Source: Desulfuromonadales bacterium
GTDB lineage: Bacteria; Desulfobacterota; Desulfuromonadia; Desulfuromonadales; BM103
NCBI GenBank assembly: GCA_030145195.1
Contig: JAQYVY010000022.1
Coordinates: 1-57,035, forward strand
Direction of reading: 5' to 3'
Length of the DNA stretch: 57,035 bases
Positions 46,920-54,069 of the stretch are shown piece by piece. The notes under the pieces are model-generated. The model was given only the letters and a program-made list of their open reading frames with translations, ran no database searches and was not told the DNA's origin. Made by a program: the position numbers and the translations under genes. Positions within the stretch are counted from its first letter, which is position 1, and every line of letters begins with the position of its first letter.

Positions 46920-47873
46920 TTAACGGACGATGCGGGAAGCTGCGGCAAGCGTTTGCAATGGAACTTTGAGGTTTAAATGGTGGGCAACATTCATATTAAC
47001 AACGAAAGAGACCTGGCGCGGGATGACCAAAGGGATTTGTTCAAAGTCTTCGCCAGAGAGAACTTGACTTGCCAGAACCGCAAGTTTTTCGCCTTGTTCG
47101 CGGGGATCTGCCTCCAAAACCATAAAGGCACCTTTCTCAGCCATCTCCGGGACTTGCGACACAACAGGAAGGTCATGCTGTTGGGCATAATTGAGGACTT
47201 GTTGATATAACGACTCAGGTTTTTCTGAGTTAGCCAGGAAAAGACCATCCAGATCATCGGGCAGTGCGGCAAGTATCTGCGGCAAATTATCCAGTTTTTC
47301 AATAACCGCATCAACGAGACTGAAGCCTCTTTTTAAAGCGATTTCGACAAGAGCCTCATATTGAAGAAGTCCTTCCGGGTTCTTGTGGTCGTAAACAACC
47401 GCAAGTTTTTTGATGCCAGCGGTTTCCGTGAAAACCTTCAGTAAAGTCTGAACCGGACCGTCACCTCGCACACCACCAATGTATGGGCCAGTCAACGACT
47501 TGCCCGAAAGCGTCTTTTGGGCAACAGGATTGTAGACCCCGGCATAAAGGACCGGTATTTTATATGATTCTGATTGCGCGGCAATCGTCGCGGCGGCACC
47601 ATAAGTAACAATCAGGTCGGCCCCAATTGCAACAGACTTTCTTGCACTATTGCGCAAGGACATCGTGTCAGCATTCGGTTTCTGCACATAGATACGGTAC
47701 TCGGCACCGTAAACTTTTTTCAGGTTTGAAACAAAGGCTTCGTGGATATGCTGATAACGAGGTAGGTCATTGGCTATAATAACGGCAATCAGGCGTTCCT
47801 CCGCAACGGCAAAGGAGGCCATTGCGAACAAACCAAAGACCAACAAGAAGCAAAAAAGAACGAAACGCCTCAC
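46920..47873 (-). CDS. Orphan ABC-type substrate-binding protein (PF04392-like)
   Basis: 317 residues from the GTG at 47873, chosen because AGGGGAAG precedes it; the frame extends upstream to 47915. A signal peptide (VLFCFLLVFGLFAMASFAVA) leads to a type 1 periplasmic binding fold: LIAVIIANDLPRYQHIHEAF, DLIVTYGAAATIAAQ, IPVLYAGVYNP, and KKLAVVYDHKNPEG. No permease or ATPase gene is adjacent, so it may serve a distant transporter or a sensor. Family members often bind amino acids such as tryptophan. Confidence 0.82.
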   Translation of the reverse strand: MRRFVLFCFLLVFGLFAMASFAVAEERLIAVIIANDLPRYQHIHEAFVSNLKKVYGAEYRIYVQKPNADTMSLRNSARKSVAIGADLIVTYGAAATIAAQSESYKIPVLYAGVYNPVAQKTLSGKSLTGPYIGGVRGDGPVQTLLKVFTETAGIKKLAVVYDHKNPEGLLQYEALVEIALKRGFSLVDAVIEKLDNLPQILAALPDDLDGLFLANSEKPESLYQQVLNYAQQHDLPVVSQVPEMAEKGAFMVLEADPREQGEKLAVLASQVLSGEDFEQIPLVIPRQVSFVVNMNVAHHLNLKVPLQTLAAASRIVR

Positions 47874-48099
47874 AAAACTTCCCCTAGAACAAACCGTTGC
47901 GTAGAGTTCTGGCACAAAGACTCGGTAGCCTTTCTGTAAATGCTGGCAACCTACGTCAAAAACATCATGCTAATACGGTGAAATAGCGTAACCTTTCAAC
48001 GTATAAGCGCAAAGGGGTCAAACATAAACGTAATGAAAAATTAGCATGCAAGAATTGTGAAAATTAATTTAATACCTGCAAAATACTTACCAAATCTTA

Positions 48100-49188
48100 T
48101 CAAAAGAGTGTCCCAAGAACAACGCCCAAGGCCGACAACGGACCAGTATCACTGATACCATCGACAGATTTTTCCACTTTGTGTAGCGTGGTTTTAGCGT
48201 CTCGGTAGAGATCGTCTTCATTCACCAAACGCCCCAAGGTGCCCTCGCCTTCATCGATTTTGGCGGCAATACTGTTGATCCGAGCCATACTACCACTGAC
48301 ATTATCGTAAAGAGCGTCGTCATGGAGCATCTTCCCGAGAGAGCCTTCGCCGGCGTTGACTTTGGTCGTAATTTTGTTCAGATTTGCGAATGTTTCCTTG
48401 GCTTCATTATAGAGCTGTTCGTCTTTTATCAATTTCCCCAAGGTCCCCTGCCCAGACTTGAGCTGTTCGGTGAGATCCTCAAGGTTAATCATCGTCTTGT
48501 TCAGGTTTTCATAAAGCGAGGGATCAGAAGCTAGCTTGCCAAGGGTCCCCTCGCCATTCTCCACCCGGGCGAGCAACCGATTCAGGCGCTTGGACATGGC
48601 AGCCATTTCATCGTAGAGGGAGGGGTTATTGACCAGGCGCCCAAGCGTGCCCTGCCCTTCATCTACCTTGATGACAATCTGTTCAAGCCGCCGGATGGTT
48701 TCCGCGAGAGGTTCCTTACTCTCATCGACCAGTTCACCCAGAGGCCGCAACACCCGCTCCTGATTACGATCAAGATTGGTGATCAGCTCGTCAATATTGG
48801 TGCCGCCTTTGGTGATGACTTTACTTCCTGGGGGCATTACCTTGCCCTCCATAGAACCGAAATCCAGCCCGAGAAAAATCCCGCCGAGCATGTTGGTTTG
48901 TCTGACCTGAGCGATTGAATCTTCTCGCACGCTATCGGCCTGATTCACATAAAAGTCAACTCTTACCTGGCTTTCTTCGAGGCCAATAGCTTTGACCTTG
49001 CCGACACTGACACCGGCAATTTTGACTGGGTCACCGACTTTCAAGCCAATTGAAGAATTGAAATAAGCTCGGTATGAGAATTGATCTTCAAAAGGTTTCC
49101 ACTCTTCAACCCGTTCAATCAAAACGGCTAGCACAATCAGAGAAACCAGAAAAAACAGACCCACTTTCTGTTCGACCGACATTGACAT
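48100..49188 (-). CDS. mlaD: MlaD-family MCE protein with five 34-residue C-terminal repeats
   Basis: 362 residues from the ATG at 49188, 1 nt after the mlaF stop. A transmembrane anchor (about 9-24, VGLFFLVSLIVLAVLI) precedes one MCE domain (GLKVGDPVKIAGVSVGKVKA, then RQTNMLGGIFLGLDFG) that should form a hexameric lipid-binding ring. From residue 178 the pattern GxG(T/S)LG(K/R)(L/M)xxDxxLY recurs at exact 34-residue steps (178, 212, 246, 280, 314), separated by amphipathic helices. It ends in a hydrophobic LSALGVVLGTLF. The repeats likely build a helical needle or channel in the periplasm. Confidence 0.92.
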   Translation of the reverse strand: MSMSVEQKVGLFFLVSLIVLAVLIERVEEWKPFEDQFSYRAYFNSSIGLKVGDPVKIAGVSVGKVKAIGLEESQVRVDFYVNQADSVREDSIAQVRQTNMLGGIFLGLDFGSMEGKVMPPGSKVITKGGTNIDELITNLDRNQERVLRPLGELVDESKEPLAETIRRLEQIVIKVDEGQGTLGRLVNNPSLYDEMAAMSKRLNRLLARVENGEGTLGKLASDPSLYENLNKTMINLEDLTEQLKSGQGTLGKLIKDEQLYNEAKETFANLNKITTKVNAGEGSLGKMLHDDALYDNVSGSMARINSIAAKIDEGEGTLGRLVNEDDLYRDAKTTLHKVEKSVDGISDTGPLSALGVVLGTLF

Positions 49189-49189
49189 T

Positions 49190-50038
49190 CTAATCCCCTT
49201 CTCCCTGAATCCCTTTAGTCGTAGTATAGATAAATTTTCGTACAATCGGGTTTTGACTTTTTTTAATCTCTTCCGGAGTACCGATGGCGACGATCTCACC
49301 ACCATGCATCATGGCCACACGATCAGAGAGATACAGCGCAAAATTAAGGTCATGACTGACGATAACAGTCGTGAGGCTAACCTTCTCCTTTAAAGACATG
49401 ATCACCCGCGCCAGCTCATCCGAAGTGACCGGATCAAGCTCTGCCGTCGGTTCATCGTAAAGGATAAGATCGGGATTCATTGCCAGAGACCGGGCAATTG
49501 CCACTCTCTTCCTCATGCCGCCGGACAATTCCGAAGTCCGAAACTCTTCCTTGCCCTCAAGCCCCACCAGGGAGAGCTTTTCCCGAATAATCCGGCGGAT
49601 CCGCACTTCACCGCAGATCCGTTTTTCACGCAACCAAAGGCCGACATTTTCCCCGACAGTTAGAGAGTTAAAAAGCGCCGAGGACTGAAAGACCATACTG
49701 TAACGGAAGGCGCGCAAGGCATCGACTGCAGGGTCAAGAACATCGTGACCGTTGAGCAGAATCTGACCCGAATCAGCTTTCATCAGTTTGACAATGTGCT
49801 TAAGCAGCAAACTTTTTCCGGTACCCGATGGCCCAATGATCGAAAAAGTCTCGCCTGGCTCAATGGTCAGGTTGATATCTTTAAGGATATGGTTATCGCC
49901 AAAAGATTTATTCAACCCCTCAATCTGGATACTGACCCCATGAGAGCCTTCGTATCCAACCTGACAGCTGTCGCCGTCCATAATTGACGGCGTGAAACCG
50001 TGAGCCAGCTTAGCCCAGAGATTACCGAGCAGATTCAT
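49190..50038 (-). CDS. mlaF: MlaF-type ABC transporter ATP-binding protein
   Basis: About 282 residues from the ATG at 50038; start codons at 50062 (TTG) and 49981 (ATG) are alternatives, and none has a clear ribosome-binding site. Nucleotide-binding motifs: Walker A GPSGTGKSLLLKH, signature LSGGMRKRVAIARSL, Walker B DLILYDEPTAELDP and the H loop VIVSHDLN. It energises phospholipid or related lipid transport with MlaE and MlaD. The N-terminal 50 residues before SIQIEGLNKSFGDNH are longer than usual and may not all be translated. Confidence 0.92.
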   Translation of the reverse strand: MNLLGNLWAKLAHGFTPSIMDGDSCQVGYEGSHGVSIQIEGLNKSFGDNHILKDINLTIEPGETFSIIGPSGTGKSLLLKHIVKLMKADSGQILLNGHDVLDPAVDALRAFRYSMVFQSSALFNSLTVGENVGLWLREKRICGEVRIRRIIREKLSLVGLEGKEEFRTSELSGGMRKRVAIARSLAMNPDLILYDEPTAELDPVTSDELARVIMSLKEKVSLTTVIVSHDLNFALYLSDRVAMMHGGEIVAIGTPEEIKKSQNPIVRKFIYTTTKGIQGEGD

Positions 50039-50104
50039 AGCGGCCACAGTTCCGAACAGCAAGTCATTTCGAGTGAAGTCGTCATCATGCCAGCATCTTC
50101 ATCC

Positions 50105-50878
50105 TTAAATCATAAAACGGGTCAACAAATAGTTGGCAATCATGATCAGCAGAAAGGCCAACACCACTGATCGGGTGGTCGATTCGCCGATGCCGCGGGC
50201 GCCACCAGACGTTTTGAAGCCGATATAACAACCGACATGAGCAATAATGCCGCCGAACACCATGGCTTTCAAAAGCCCCTTAAAAACCTCTTTGTAATTG
50301 AGGGCTCTGACCATGTTTTCATAATAAACATTGAACGGGACATTGATCATTGGATTGATCTCGGCAACAACCCCACCGCCGATAATACCAATAATGATAG
50401 CAAAAACAACCAAGGCTGGAACGGCCAAGAGACAGGCGATCAATCTTGGCATCGCCAGATAACGTACCGGACTGATTTCCAGCGTTTTTAAAGCATCAAT
50501 CTCTTCGTAGACCTGCATGGCACCAATCTCGGCGGCCATCGCAGAACCAACCCGCCCTGCCACCAGCAGACTGATCATGACCGGGCCCAACTCCTTAACC
50601 ATCGACAGCCCAACGATCGCCCCGATCGCCTCCTGGGTGCCATACAGGGCTAGTTCCGAGCCAGTCTGAAGCGACAACACCATACCGACGAATAGGGCCA
50701 TGAGCATTGAGATTGGCAAGGTGCCAACTCCAATCTCATTGATTTGTCGGAAAATACTGGTCAGGTTGCGCGGTGCCTCCTTAAAGTAAAAAAGAGTCTC
50801 GAACAAAAGAGCGAGCATTTCACCGGTGCCTTGCGCCACCGCCAGTATTTTAGTCCCTATAAAGGCAAAGAGCCGCAT
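50105..50878 (-). CDS. mlaE: MlaE-family ABC permease
   Basis: 257 residues, multiple membrane segments. Family text: FRQINEIGVGTLPISMLMALFVGMVLSLQ (in part), GPVMISLLVAGRVGSAMAAEIG, and MPRLIACLLAVPALVVFAII. It forms the membrane channel of the MlaFEDB-type lipid transporter. It starts 9 nt after the aromatic-repeat protein gene and precedes mlaF and mlaD, so all four form an operon. Confidence 0.94.
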   Translation of the reverse strand: MRLFAFIGTKILAVAQGTGEMLALLFETLFYFKEAPRNLTSIFRQINEIGVGTLPISMLMALFVGMVLSLQTGSELALYGTQEAIGAIVGLSMVKELGPVMISLLVAGRVGSAMAAEIGAMQVYEEIDALKTLEISPVRYLAMPRLIACLLAVPALVVFAIIIGIIGGGVVAEINPMINVPFNVYYENMVRALNYKEVFKGLLKAMVFGGIIAHVGCYIGFKTSGGARGIGESTTRSVVLAFLLIMIANYLLTRFMI

Positions 50879-50887
50879 AAATGATTC

Positions 50888-52345
50888 TCACAAAGAGTCA
50901 GGTGTCGATGTTCCAAATTTGAGTCCCCATGGAAGAAAAAAAAGATTCAGGGTTTTGCCGTTCGAATCAGAACGGTAGCGCAGCAGACCTTTAAGAAGCC
51001 GGAAATCTTTTTCCCCGGCCGCTTCGGTTCGATACTCCATGAGCGGGAACAGTTCCCAGGCCACCCGCTCGCCCTGTTTTTCACGCCAGAACAGGTTCCA
51101 GAGCAGGCTGACGACCTGATTGCCCTGCCGGTCCCATTTCTGTTGATAAACGCGCCAAAGCGGCGACCAGGAACGCTCTATGCCTTGATTATCAGGAAAC
51201 AGCGGCTCCAGCAGTGATAAGAAATGCAGGTGGCTGACGCCATTTTTTCGCTCAAAGCCAAACAGTGGCCACAGGGTAATCCGCCGCAACGATTCACCCG
51301 TGTCTGGCTTCACTTCTTTAAGGTCAGAATAGAGGAAGAACAGAACCCGGTCACGCCGCCGTTCGATCAAATCGGAGTGCATCTCCTCAATTTTGTAAAT
51401 CGGCCAAAGATACCATCTCTGACGCTTAACATCCAATGTTTCGTCAGCATAAAAGGGCAAAAGTCGCAAGCCATGATATTTCTCGCCGTGGGTGACGCGG
51501 ACCAACGGCCAGGGCGCATTCCAGACGGTATAATCCTTTTGATAATTCATGGCCTTGGAGAAGAACGGCCAGAGCCACGACTGATATGATTTTTCTGGTG
51601 ATTTATGACTGTAATAAAGCGGCCACACCGCACGATTCTCCATGGGATTATCGGTGTGTAGCTTTACAGACTCAGAGAAAAAGATTGGCCAGAGGAAGAA
51701 CTTCTTGCGGTACTCGCCCTGTTTGGAACTTTGCCCGTAGAACGGCCAGAACCTGAAGCCCGACTCTTCTTCTCCGGAGATCCGGGCAAAGATCGGCCAA
51801 AGCACATTATCGGTTCGAGTTGTGCCGCGTTGAGTTCGGCTATAGAGCGGAAAGAGTACGAATGAGATCTCTTCGTAGCGGAACCAATTGTACAGGGTTC
51901 CGCCGAGAGGGAAGAAAGCCCAGTAATTGCCTCGTTTTTCATCCTCACCGTAAAACAGAAACGGGAAGAGGTAGCTGCGGTTGCCGCTGCCGGTTTCGCG
52001 GTCACCAAAATCGTAATTCAAGAGATGGAACAGGTGGAAACTGGACCCGCCCTTTTCGCGACGGTGACCGAAGGCTGGATAGAGGACTTCGGTCTGCGAA
52101 ACGCCCTCGTCATCGACTGCACGGTAAAAGAGTGGCCGGAGCGCATATTCAGTCTCAAAGCCCTTGTTTTCGTGCTTCAAAAACGGCCCCAGTAGGTGCA
52201 AGCTCTGGTAATCAACGGCATGAGAAGCCCGGTAATCGGCAATGGGCCAGAGCGTAAAGATAGAGGAATCATCGGCTGTGGCGGGAGCAGTCGACAACAC
52301 CAGGATAAGCATAAACGCAGCAAAGAAGATGAAGCTTCGAACCAT
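50888..52345 (-). CDS. Aromatic LWP-repeat exported protein, possible outer-membrane partner of MlaEFD
   Basis: 485 residues from the ATG at 52345 (a GTG at 52396 is possible). A signal peptide (VRSFIFFAAFMLILVLSTAPATA) leads to a long series of short aromatic strands: LWPIFARI, FRFWPFYG, FFLWPIFFSE, AVWPLYYSH, SWLWPFFSK, LRLLPFYAD, WYLWPIYKI, ITLWPLFGF and LLWNLFWRE. They are spaced by 15-40 polar residues. The pattern suggests about 16-20 beta strands, that is a barrel or sheet protein at the outer membrane. No characterised family is recognised. Its place as first gene of the mlaE-mlaF-mlaD operon suggests a role in the same lipid transport. Confidence 0.8.
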   Translation of the reverse strand: MVRSFIFFAAFMLILVLSTAPATADDSSIFTLWPIADYRASHAVDYQSLHLLGPFLKHENKGFETEYALRPLFYRAVDDEGVSQTEVLYPAFGHRREKGGSSFHLFHLLNYDFGDRETGSGNRSYLFPFLFYGEDEKRGNYWAFFPLGGTLYNWFRYEEISFVLFPLYSRTQRGTTRTDNVLWPIFARISGEEESGFRFWPFYGQSSKQGEYRKKFFLWPIFFSESVKLHTDNPMENRAVWPLYYSHKSPEKSYQSWLWPFFSKAMNYQKDYTVWNAPWPLVRVTHGEKYHGLRLLPFYADETLDVKRQRWYLWPIYKIEEMHSDLIERRRDRVLFFLYSDLKEVKPDTGESLRRITLWPLFGFERKNGVSHLHFLSLLEPLFPDNQGIERSWSPLWRVYQQKWDRQGNQVVSLLWNLFWREKQGERVAWELFPLMEYRTEAAGEKDFRLLKGLLRYRSDSNGKTLNLFFLPWGLKFGTSTPDSL

Positions 52346-52583
52346 AACTTCTACCACAAGGAAAACGGACGTTAATAAAGTTCGCAAAGATATCACGAGA
52401 GGGCGACAAGGAACAACCTATTGTGTCGAATTAAACGACAGAACAAGCTGTAATTATTGATTATCTTTAATGGGTAGAGCGTTTTTCAGGAAGAATTATA
52501 CCACGATGCGCGGGATCCTTTAAACGTGCGGCTTGACGCTGCGATTGCGCAGAGGGGTGTTTGTGGATAAAAATGAAAGAGGG

Positions 52584-52726: not shown

Positions 52727-53680
52727 TCAGATAGAATCGAGTCGTTCTTGAGCCAGTTCATGATCCGGTGCAATCTCAAGCGCCTGGGTTAATGCGGCAA
52801 AGGCTCCAGCGTTATCGTCAGTCTTTAGGCGACACATACCAAGCAGGCAGAAAAAATCAGCCGAGACAAACTCAGAAAGAAAATATTCATCCTCTTCGAG
52901 TCTCTCCAAAATAGCTGTCGCCACCGAAAAATCTTGCGCGGCGTAGAGCATCATCGCCTCACCAACCTGTTCCAGATCATCGACCAACGGATGGTCGGGG
53001 AATCCCGTCGCAACACAACTCTCAACTCGCATCTGGACCTGCTGCTGCAGACGCTCATCCTCAACCTGTGGCAGCATCCGCTGAAATTTAGAAATTGCTG
53101 AAGGATAATCCCCGTAGAGTATATCAACTTCTGCAAGCAGGTTGAGCGCCGATGGGCTATTTTTTTCAATCTTGAGCAAATCCTGGCCAAAGCGCATGGC
53201 TTCCAGCAGGTGACGCTGCACCTGGGGCAGTTCGGTAAACGTCATCGCCATGCCATGGTAGCCTTGGAAAAGCTGCCAGAGCAGTCCGGCGTTCTCCGGT
53301 TCGAGCAGACGCAGAATTTTCAAGTACGTCAACTTGCGCAGAACATAGGCAGGTTCCACATCTTTGGCGTCAAGCATCACCACATGTGCCGCCAGATCAG
53401 CGAGGAAATGTGAATACCCGTCGCGGAGCAACCGCGCATAAAGGATATTATGCTGGCAGTCGGGGAAACGTCTCAGATAGTCATAGACCCCTTCGCCGAT
53501 GACATGATCGCTTGGCGTCTCGGATGAGTTATTGAGTTTGATTGGCAGTGGCACCTGAGGCAGAAAAACTTCTAACTGCTCCGGTCCGACATGAACGCAA
53601 CAGTCTTCTGGCGGGGACCAGAAAGTAAAGTGCTGCGGATCAAGGTTCTCGGGTTGTGCATCAGTGAAAAATTGGTTCAT
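52727..53680 (-). CDS. TPR-like helical protein
   Basis: 317 residues, all-helical in appearance. Two or more tetratricopeptide-like units are visible in the C-terminal half (ALNLLAEVDILYGDYPSAIS, and CRLKTDDNAGAFAALTQALE then IAPDHELAQERL). The N-terminal part has WSPPEDCCVHVGPEQLEVFL and a YDYLRRFPDCQHNILYARLL segment that I do not recognise. It is probably a cytoplasmic scaffold. It is the first gene before the 42-residue membrane protein. Confidence 0.7.
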   Translation of the reverse strand: MNQFFTDAQPENLDPQHFTFWSPPEDCCVHVGPEQLEVFLPQVPLPIKLNNSSETPSDHVIGEGVYDYLRRFPDCQHNILYARLLRDGYSHFLADLAAHVVMLDAKDVEPAYVLRKLTYLKILRLLEPENAGLLWQLFQGYHGMAMTFTELPQVQRHLLEAMRFGQDLLKIEKNSPSALNLLAEVDILYGDYPSAISKFQRMLPQVEDERLQQQVQMRVESCVATGFPDHPLVDDLEQVGEAMMLYAAQDFSVATAILERLEEDEYFLSEFVSADFFCLLGMCRLKTDDNAGAFAALTQALEIAPDHELAQERLDSI

Positions 53681-53873: not shown

Positions 53874-53951
53874 TGGTACGCCCTAGGGGATTCGAACCCC
53901 TGTCGCCGCCGTGAAAGGGCGGTGTCCTAGACCAGGCTAGACGAAGAGCGC
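53874..53951 (-). tRNA. tRNA-Glu (anticodon TTC)
   Basis: Minus-strand cloverleaf of 78 nt: acceptor GCGCTCT with AGGGCGT (two G-U pairs), D arm TCGTCTAGCCTGGTCTAGGA, anticodon stem CCGCC/GGCGG with loop CTTTCAC, T arm AGGGG-TTCGAAT-CCCCT, and encoded CCA. The anticodon TTC is clear. Confidence 0.95.
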
Positions 53952-53994: not shown

Positions 53995-54069
53995 TGGCTG
54001 GGGTGGGAGGATTTGAACCCCCGAATGACGGGATCAGAACCCGTTGCCTTACCGCTTGGCGACACCCCA
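53995..54069 (-). tRNA. tRNA-Gln (anticodon CTG)
   Basis: Minus-strand cloverleaf of 75 nt: acceptor TGGGGTG/CACCCCA, D arm TCGCCAAGCGGTAAGGCA, anticodon stem ACGGG/CCCGT with loop TTCTGAT, T loop TTCAAAT, discriminator G and encoded CCA. It closely resembles E. coli tRNA-Gln(CUG). Confidence 0.95.

Follow-up and report, generated by a model that had tools for sequence, protein, structure and literature searches.

An LWP-repeat protein as a candidate outer-membrane-side partner of a long-arm MlaEFD lipid transporter in Desulfobacterota

The closest described counterpart of the system considered here is the MlaEFD transporter of Veillonella parvula, in which, according to the portions of the report by Grasekamp (2023, PMC10665443) used here, an elongated MlaD carries a ten-strand C-terminal barrel within its own chain. 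The same portions raise the question of whether non-homologous proteins take the place of outer-membrane components that are missing, state that long MlaD proteins without a barrel may need "as yet unidentified proteins", and describe no separate MlaD partner. A 57,035-nucleotide stretch of DNA from a Desulfuromonadales bacterium (contig JAQYVY010000022.1 of assembly GCA_030145195.1), hereafter the window, encodes a candidate for such a partner, namely an exported protein built of repeated strands bearing LWP motifs (the LWP protein), which leads an mlaE-mlaF-mlaD operon. We suggest, with a probability of about 0.7, that an MlaEFD bridge working independently of MlaA and MlaC has the LWP protein as its end on the outer-membrane side, and that, to judge from the sequences, this protein would be contacted through the C-terminal tail of MlaD. 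An LWP-like partner is not described in the MCE and Mla literature as covered by titles and abstract openings of open-licence papers, a coverage that does not amount to proof of novelty.

The LWP gene (50888..52345, minus strand) encodes 485 amino acids from an ATG at 52345; an alternative GTG start at 52396 is likewise open. Residues 1-24, MVRSFIFFAAFMLILVLSTAPATA (52274..52345, minus strand), were judged by eye to be a signal peptide, consisting of a hydrophobic core followed by APATA and lacking a lipobox. The exported protein of LWP strands announced in a preliminary description of this DNA is thus a real open reading frame, and the span 50105-52345 assigned to it there takes in mlaE as well, LWP alone occupying 50888-52345. 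After a gap of 9 nt follows mlaE (50105..50878, minus strand, start at 50878), encoding an MCE-type lipid ABC permease of 257 amino acids (PF02405, 1e-73; TIGR00056 above cut-off). The ABC ATPase gene mlaF lies in an open frame at 49190..50062 (minus strand; PF00005, 3e-33), with a conserved position and a probable start inside the frame, and mlaD, encoding a long-arm MCE protein, in an open frame at 48100..49305 (minus strand; PF02470, 4e-19) with a probable start near 49188. The minus-strand order is LWP, mlaE, mlaF, mlaD; the permease, the ATPase and the MCE-domain protein are encoded in a single operon, as in MCE (MlaEFD) lipid ABC transporters, and the tight link to a lipid ABC transporter claimed earlier is borne out by the short gap and the Pfam assignments. 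The window MlaD matches the profile of LWP-type MlaDs (A4) as two overlapping segments, covering model positions 8-312 and 209-349, and ends in the tail GPLSALGVVLGTLF (48103..48144, minus strand).

The LWP family has no name. The window protein has no credible relative in Pfam, NCBIfam, PHROG or PDB, the family alignments have none in Pfam and PDB, and a scan of viral contigs found no relatives. A Pfam PRDM2_PR match to the family was discarded, as its E-value of 0.015 was below cut-off and it occurred in only 2 of 22 members.

A single-sequence search of the source genome and 57 relatives gave an LWP match in 41 of the 58 genomes, 40 of them strong and the 41st (G037) weak and to a paralogue. 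With a family profile the protein was found in 94 of 297 genomes of the phylum; another sample, overlapping the first, gave 115 of 395, and the order gave 50 of 136. Two LWP genomes (G171 and G219) were scored from short pieces. A scan of a genome collection yielded three LWP loci from one named group (Geobacter/Oryzomonas), the other surveys being confined to this phylum, and the named Oryzomonas loci sit beside a genome of the same class in the MlaE tree, a placement from which the phylum is taken to be Thermodesulfobacteriota.

In all 40 strong-match genomes, the source genome included, an LWP match and an mlaE are no more than 3 kb apart; 3 of 47 match rows, further pieces of the paralogues of G030 and G037, were left out of the mlaE/LWP count over the 58 genomes. 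Of 160 distinct LWP loci across the phylum, 143 carry a same-strand mlaE, mlaF or mlaD frame no more than 700 nt away. Distinct-locus counts exclude duplicates of one place, those over 160 loci also exclude the paralogue loci L159 and L160, and L071, which has a join across a gap, was scored as adjacent to mla. Four of the 17 non-adjacent loci (L014, L041, L049 and L206) end at a contig edge, and at another, L035, an mlaD with the tail is found about 4.8 kb away. Two gene orders are known, LWP-E-F-D as in the window and E-F-D-LWP, and the association survives rearrangement: where the operon is broken up, LWP remains by mlaE in Geobacteraceae (L031-L033, L036) and by mlaD in family f54 (e.g. 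L114-L117). Most LWP members of family f50 are not adjacent to mla, with linked relatives at L171 and L178. A check of 25 genomes belonging to f22, f23, f50, f54 and f60 showed that each encodes an MlaE somewhere. The survey of homologues suggested in the preliminary description therefore speaks for a lasting association with mla, and neither of the outcomes named there as fatal to the idea, homologues mostly away from mla genes or a predicted soluble cytoplasmic fold, was found, the protein being exported. That LWP works as a functional partner of MlaEFD is very probable.

The partnership does not extend to MlaA or MlaC at the same loci. The 58 genomes contain 98 mlaE places; none of the 40 by LWP has mlaA within 6 kb, against 26 of the 58 other places. 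When the source genome's own MlaA and MlaC were used as queries, neither was detected in any of the 160 distinct LWP loci, 88 of which have 3 kb or more of flanking sequence on each side, and the same similarity search found each in 16 of 17 mlaA-type loci. The mlaE of the window operon is the sole MlaE found in the source genome, whose MlaA is encoded on another contig (G000:C18:11962-12543), so that the earlier statement that there is no mlaA holds for the window and fails for the genome. In a tree of 110 MlaE rows, the mlaA-linked rows form a single clade (SH-aLRT 100), and the LWP-linked rows fall outside it. The window system has neither the MlaA/MlaC route nor the short MlaD of the canonical Mla pathway.

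The MlaD proteins linked to LWP extend a median of 202 residues beyond the MCE model (116 loci), compared with 0-9 residues for those linked to mlaA (17 loci); the set used for arm length and MlaC comprised 171 loci and 116 MlaDs, with some duplicates retained. The long arm ends in a conserved tail, P-[IL]-[TS]-x-x-G, the proline of which is invariant in 29 of 29 aligned rows. By a motif test, 102 of 109 MlaDs linked to LWP have the tail and 0 of 31 MlaDs from non-LWP loci do, the seven exceptions among the former being variants (L098, L105, L204) or apparently cut short (L040, L058, L194, L201). A tailed MlaD is also present in all 12 genomes examined in which LWP sits away from mlaD, namely six of six in f50 and two of two in f60, both judged by eye, and four of four of Geobacteraceae type (G082, G209, G523, G524); the remaining 26 of the 30 MlaD loci fetched in the tail search have no tail. 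Among LWP-negative relatives a tailed MlaD was found in 0 of 17, with G023 left out as its locus stops at the contig end, and second MlaD copies present in some LWP genomes lack the tail. The tail is proposed here as a putative docking peptide for the LWP protein. Another long-arm MlaD type (L142, L143, L225, L227, L228) terminates in a conserved tail of its own, Y[VI]xFS[LI]F, a sequence which suggests a different outer partner.

The LWP-type MlaD profile was applied to the same 297 genomes, of which 147 match at 1e-45. Among the matches listed, all 66 genomes with an MlaD row reaching the tail have LWP, and LWP occurs in none of the 49 genomes with an MlaD frame of at least 450 amino acids and no tail, where 15.8 would be expected to have it by chance (hypergeometric 5e-10 before kinship is considered). 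The tailed and the long-MlaD genomes belong to 19 and 27 families, respectively, with zero overlap. Two LWP genomes with open frames above 450 amino acids (G185 and G254) were not counted as long-MlaD genomes, since the tail is present at the end of their MlaD; six LWP-negative genomes among the matches listed (G060, G098, G173, G232, G253, G278) belong to neither class, and four LWP genomes (G076, G267, G291, G297) have no listed MlaD match.

Twenty of the 49 long MlaDs were fetched, and all 20 possess a C-terminal domain of about 200 amino acids, with 205-213 residues following the final arm repeat; LWP is absent from the stretches fetched around these genes. This cis domain (L290-L309) is well conserved, with a mean column identity of 56% over the 20 aligned sequences, and its strand alternation of 2.03, against 1.55 +/- 0.15 for shuffled sequences, is as expected of membrane strands. 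No Pfam match was obtained for the 5 of 20 scanned, and no convincing PDB match was found. By architecture, the domain fits the C-terminal barrel of MlaD described in the portions of PMC10665443 cited above. The complementary distribution of LWP and the long tail-less MlaD suggests that the outer end is supplied either in cis or by the LWP protein, and one phylum thus seems to hold two solutions, an outer end within the MlaD chain or a separate LWP protein.

In the family alignment of the LWP protein, strand centres number about 24 and recur at intervals of about 18 residues; the initial 16 were placed on conserved prolines and most of the last eight by eye. Hydrophobicity has a period of 18.5-19 residues (power 28-44). 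The preliminary count of about 16-20 strands was therefore right as to a many-strand repeat and slightly low as to the number. Covariation was computed from mean-field couplings over 155 sequences (effective number 122) and averaged over repeats, an earlier set of 121 sequences giving agreement; only this repeat-averaged test was used, because the top single pairs of the direct coupling analysis resembled noise. Within the first 16 repeats, consecutive repeats pair in antiparallel fashion (t 4.1), with 14 of 15 hairpins positive and 0 of 2000 random registers as strong, and the proline of one repeat faces the residue preceding the proline of the next. The largest parallel value for consecutive repeats was t = 2.7 at offset 6 (1.2 in the 121-sequence set), and repeats two to six apart reached at most 2.0 antiparallel and 2.2 parallel. 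Neighbours being antiparallel, with no break every four strands, a beta-propeller and a parallel beta-solenoid were rejected by covariation. Of the features of an ordinary outer-membrane barrel, the LWP protein thus has the export signal and, over the first 16 repeats, the antiparallel up-and-down order, and it lacks the hydrophobic/polar alternation.

In the proposed arrangement, MlaE and MlaF would act as the inner-membrane ABC pump, and the MlaD ring with its long helical arm would reach across the periplasm and end at the short conserved tail, the outer end being provided by a separate gene. MlaD forms a hexamer in characterised relatives. The LWP protein, predicted to be an antiparallel beta meander of about 24 strands with its hydrophobic belt in or on the outer membrane, would take the MlaD tails and pass lipids between that membrane and the MlaD channel. 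Action at the outer-membrane end is probable; the placement of the protein, direct binding of the tails, lipid conduction and closure of a barrel are inferred from the foregoing data. The odds that the LWP protein is a membrane-embedded closed barrel are put at slightly below even. A fuller picture is tentative: the protein might be a broad beta-barrel whose greasy lumen is filled with lipid and holds the tails of the MlaD hexamer, a continuous hydrophobic conduit between inner and outer membrane made of two separately encoded halves.

Several observations weigh against an outer-membrane end formed by the LWP protein, some of them relating to its distribution. Thirteen LWP loci with a visible neighbourhood do not adjoin mla genes. 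The repeat is not confined to mla, since longer paralogues exist, one of them, of 722 amino acids, in a genome (G037) with no MlaE, MlaD or MlaA match. MlaA is present elsewhere in 30 of 40 LWP genomes, contrary to the earlier expectation that homologue-bearing genomes would lack mlaA. The LWP-linked MlaE rows do not form a single clade, which leaves an ancestral and a repeatedly gained association indistinguishable in the tree, and genome-level counts are not independent owing to kinship. The loci away from mla, together with the paralogues, which show other uses of the repeat, would be in keeping with a protein that assists assembly or quality control of MlaEFD, or is merely co-regulated with it, and has no role in lipid transfer. 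However, LWP co-occurs with one MlaD type even where it is unlinked, and it is missing from the 49 listed genomes with the longer tail-less MlaD; an assembly or co-regulation role is accordingly regarded as very improbable.

Further points on the same side concern the fold. Covariation gave no clear signal for the last eight strands and none for pairing of the first strand with the last, as barrel closure would involve. AlphaFold produced no usable model (mean pLDDT 28.9 from four input sequences and 33.2 from a single sequence), and no structural claim is drawn from it for that reason. Profile comparison revealed no similarity between the LWP protein and the cis MlaD domain (hhalign probability 0.1). 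The hydrophobic belt is about 8 residues wide with both sheet faces equal, unlike in ordinary outer-membrane barrels, and strand alternation (1.12) is below that of shuffled columns (1.33 +/- 0.09). The idea of a new outer-membrane component, put forward in the preliminary description, consequently gains from the mla linkage, the export signal, the lack of local mlaA and mlaC and the complementarity with the cis-domain MlaD, and loses from strands without one polar face.

The belt bears on the possibility that the LWP protein is an ordinary outer-membrane barrel with a polar lumen, serving as a scaffold in the way that OmpC does for MlaA. Such a scaffold would share the antiparallel meander, the export and the operon position, but neither sheet face is polar within the belt, and alternation falls below the shuffled level, whereas the cis MlaD domain from the same phylum shows it. 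MlaA was found in none of the 160 LWP loci, and we consider the scaffold extremely unlikely. As far as the sequences indicate, a two-faced hydrophobic sheet would be suited to contact with lipid at both faces, or to stacking, and is not the porin pattern.

The export signals raise a different alternative. A convincing lipobox is present in about 30 of 126 family frames (a script flagged 32, of which inspection by eye found a few false, with a few others missed), and most other frames, the window member included, have ordinary-looking signal peptides as judged by eye and with a simple motif. Lipidation in some lineages fits an outer-membrane site and cannot distinguish a barrel embedded there from a periplasmic protein anchored to it; the lipobox frames would equally fit the latter, which is a further point against a membrane-embedded protein. 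The LWP protein might then reside in the periplasm, lipid-anchored in some lineages, as a beta-structured carrier or adaptor for lipids that lies against the periplasmic side of the outer membrane, does the jobs of MlaC and MlaA together and does not cross the membrane. Its short loops agree with such a carrier, as do two hydrophobic faces with no porin-like alternation, features that could be accounted for by a fold with stacking or a groove. Yet many equivalent strands with two greasy faces would have no obvious soluble packing, the hairpin signal has no propeller-type break every four strands, and the hairpin linkers alternate in length (mean 19.4, sd 1.48 versus mean 17.5, sd 0.74) in a manner resembling outer-membrane barrels. 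The carrier is judged unlikely, and a bridge whose outer-membrane end is the LWP protein remains our preferred reading.

The composition of the LWP operons is not uniform. Among the 88 loci flanked by 3 kb or more on each side, those with mla genes lack a recognised mlaE in 13 cases and a recognised mlaF in 18. Operons with no recognised mlaE in the stretch include L078, L082 and L179, which carry one or two MlaF-like ATPase matches, and those with no recognised mlaF in the stretch include L065, L084, L088, L102 and L172. A fused MlaD-LWP gene at L071 (an 808-amino-acid frame) was rejected because the join crosses a run of N, that is, a scaffold gap, and the MlaD portion before the gap still ends in a tail like those of unfused MlaDs. 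Loss of LWP in G023 was not accepted, the mlaE frame there stopping about 40 nt from the contig end. The longer LWP-repeat paralogues are encoded at L160:1910-4426 (G030:C184; 839 amino acids) and L159:487-2652 (G037:C390; 722 amino acids); both have signal-like N-termini and no Pfam match, and mla genes are absent from the stretches fetched.

Elsewhere in the source genome, MlaA and MlaC are found in a row with an 841-amino-acid MMPL-family exporter (L156, G000:C18:7000-18000), with MCE genes absent from the stretch. Contig G000:C92 (L157:3174-4871) carries a 566-amino-acid frame with several MCE domains, which is PqiB/LetB-like by length and domain count.

Within the window, the operon is flanked by genes that were excluded from its parts. 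Downstream, an ABC substrate-binding gene is located at 46920-47915; 1 of the 160 distinct loci of LWP showed it, the sequence of most LWP-first loci not extending far enough to reveal it. Upstream of LWP, a gene for a tetratricopeptide-repeat (TPR) protein (52727-53680, minus strand) was found in 44 of 160; all loci with it have the LWP-first order or only LWP visible. Two tRNA genes (53877-53951 and 53998-54069, minus strand) lie between the TPR gene and a frame named by eye as glutamyl-tRNA synthetase-like, and Rfam revealed nothing else near the operon. Promoter-like sites number 6 against 5.4 expected, which is chance level; the best, at 52524-52495 (minus strand), matches 10 of 12 bases and lies about 150 nt upstream of the LWP start.

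The LWP protein represents a concrete and widespread candidate for a missing outer-membrane part, with a testable contact in the MlaD tail, and its proposed role would help to explain how MlaEFD-type transporters work without known outer-membrane parts. A single phylum offers a natural comparison between an outer end in the MlaD chain and one encoded separately. Should the sheet with its two hydrophobic faces indeed be a membrane conduit, it would represent a new design of lipid-conducting outer-membrane protein.

With the canonical MlaFEDB-MlaC-MlaA system the LWP system has the MlaE, MlaF and MlaD families in common, and it differs from it by the lack of neighbouring MlaC and MlaA, by a long-arm, tailed MlaD and by an MlaE outside the mlaA-linked clade. 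The notion of an uninterrupted hydrophobic passage through the periplasm is shared with the multi-MCE tunnels of PqiB and LetB; unlike these, the LWP system has one MCE domain per MlaD. The chloroplast TGD1/2/3 complex with TGD4, as described in the part of PMC5948301 used here, may be an analogue by description, although in the plant system TGD5 is proposed to mediate the contact of TGD4 with TGD1-3. As in V. parvula, in the account given by the portions of PMC10665443 cited here, MlaEFD occurs without MlaA or MlaC and MlaD has a long helical arm for a proposed bridge from the inner to the outer membrane. The window MlaD has this long arm after its MCE domain and no C-terminal barrel domain. 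Unlike the V. parvula protein so described, the MlaD of the LWP system ends in a short tail, and it is accompanied by a separate, apparently unrelated protein of about 24 strands.

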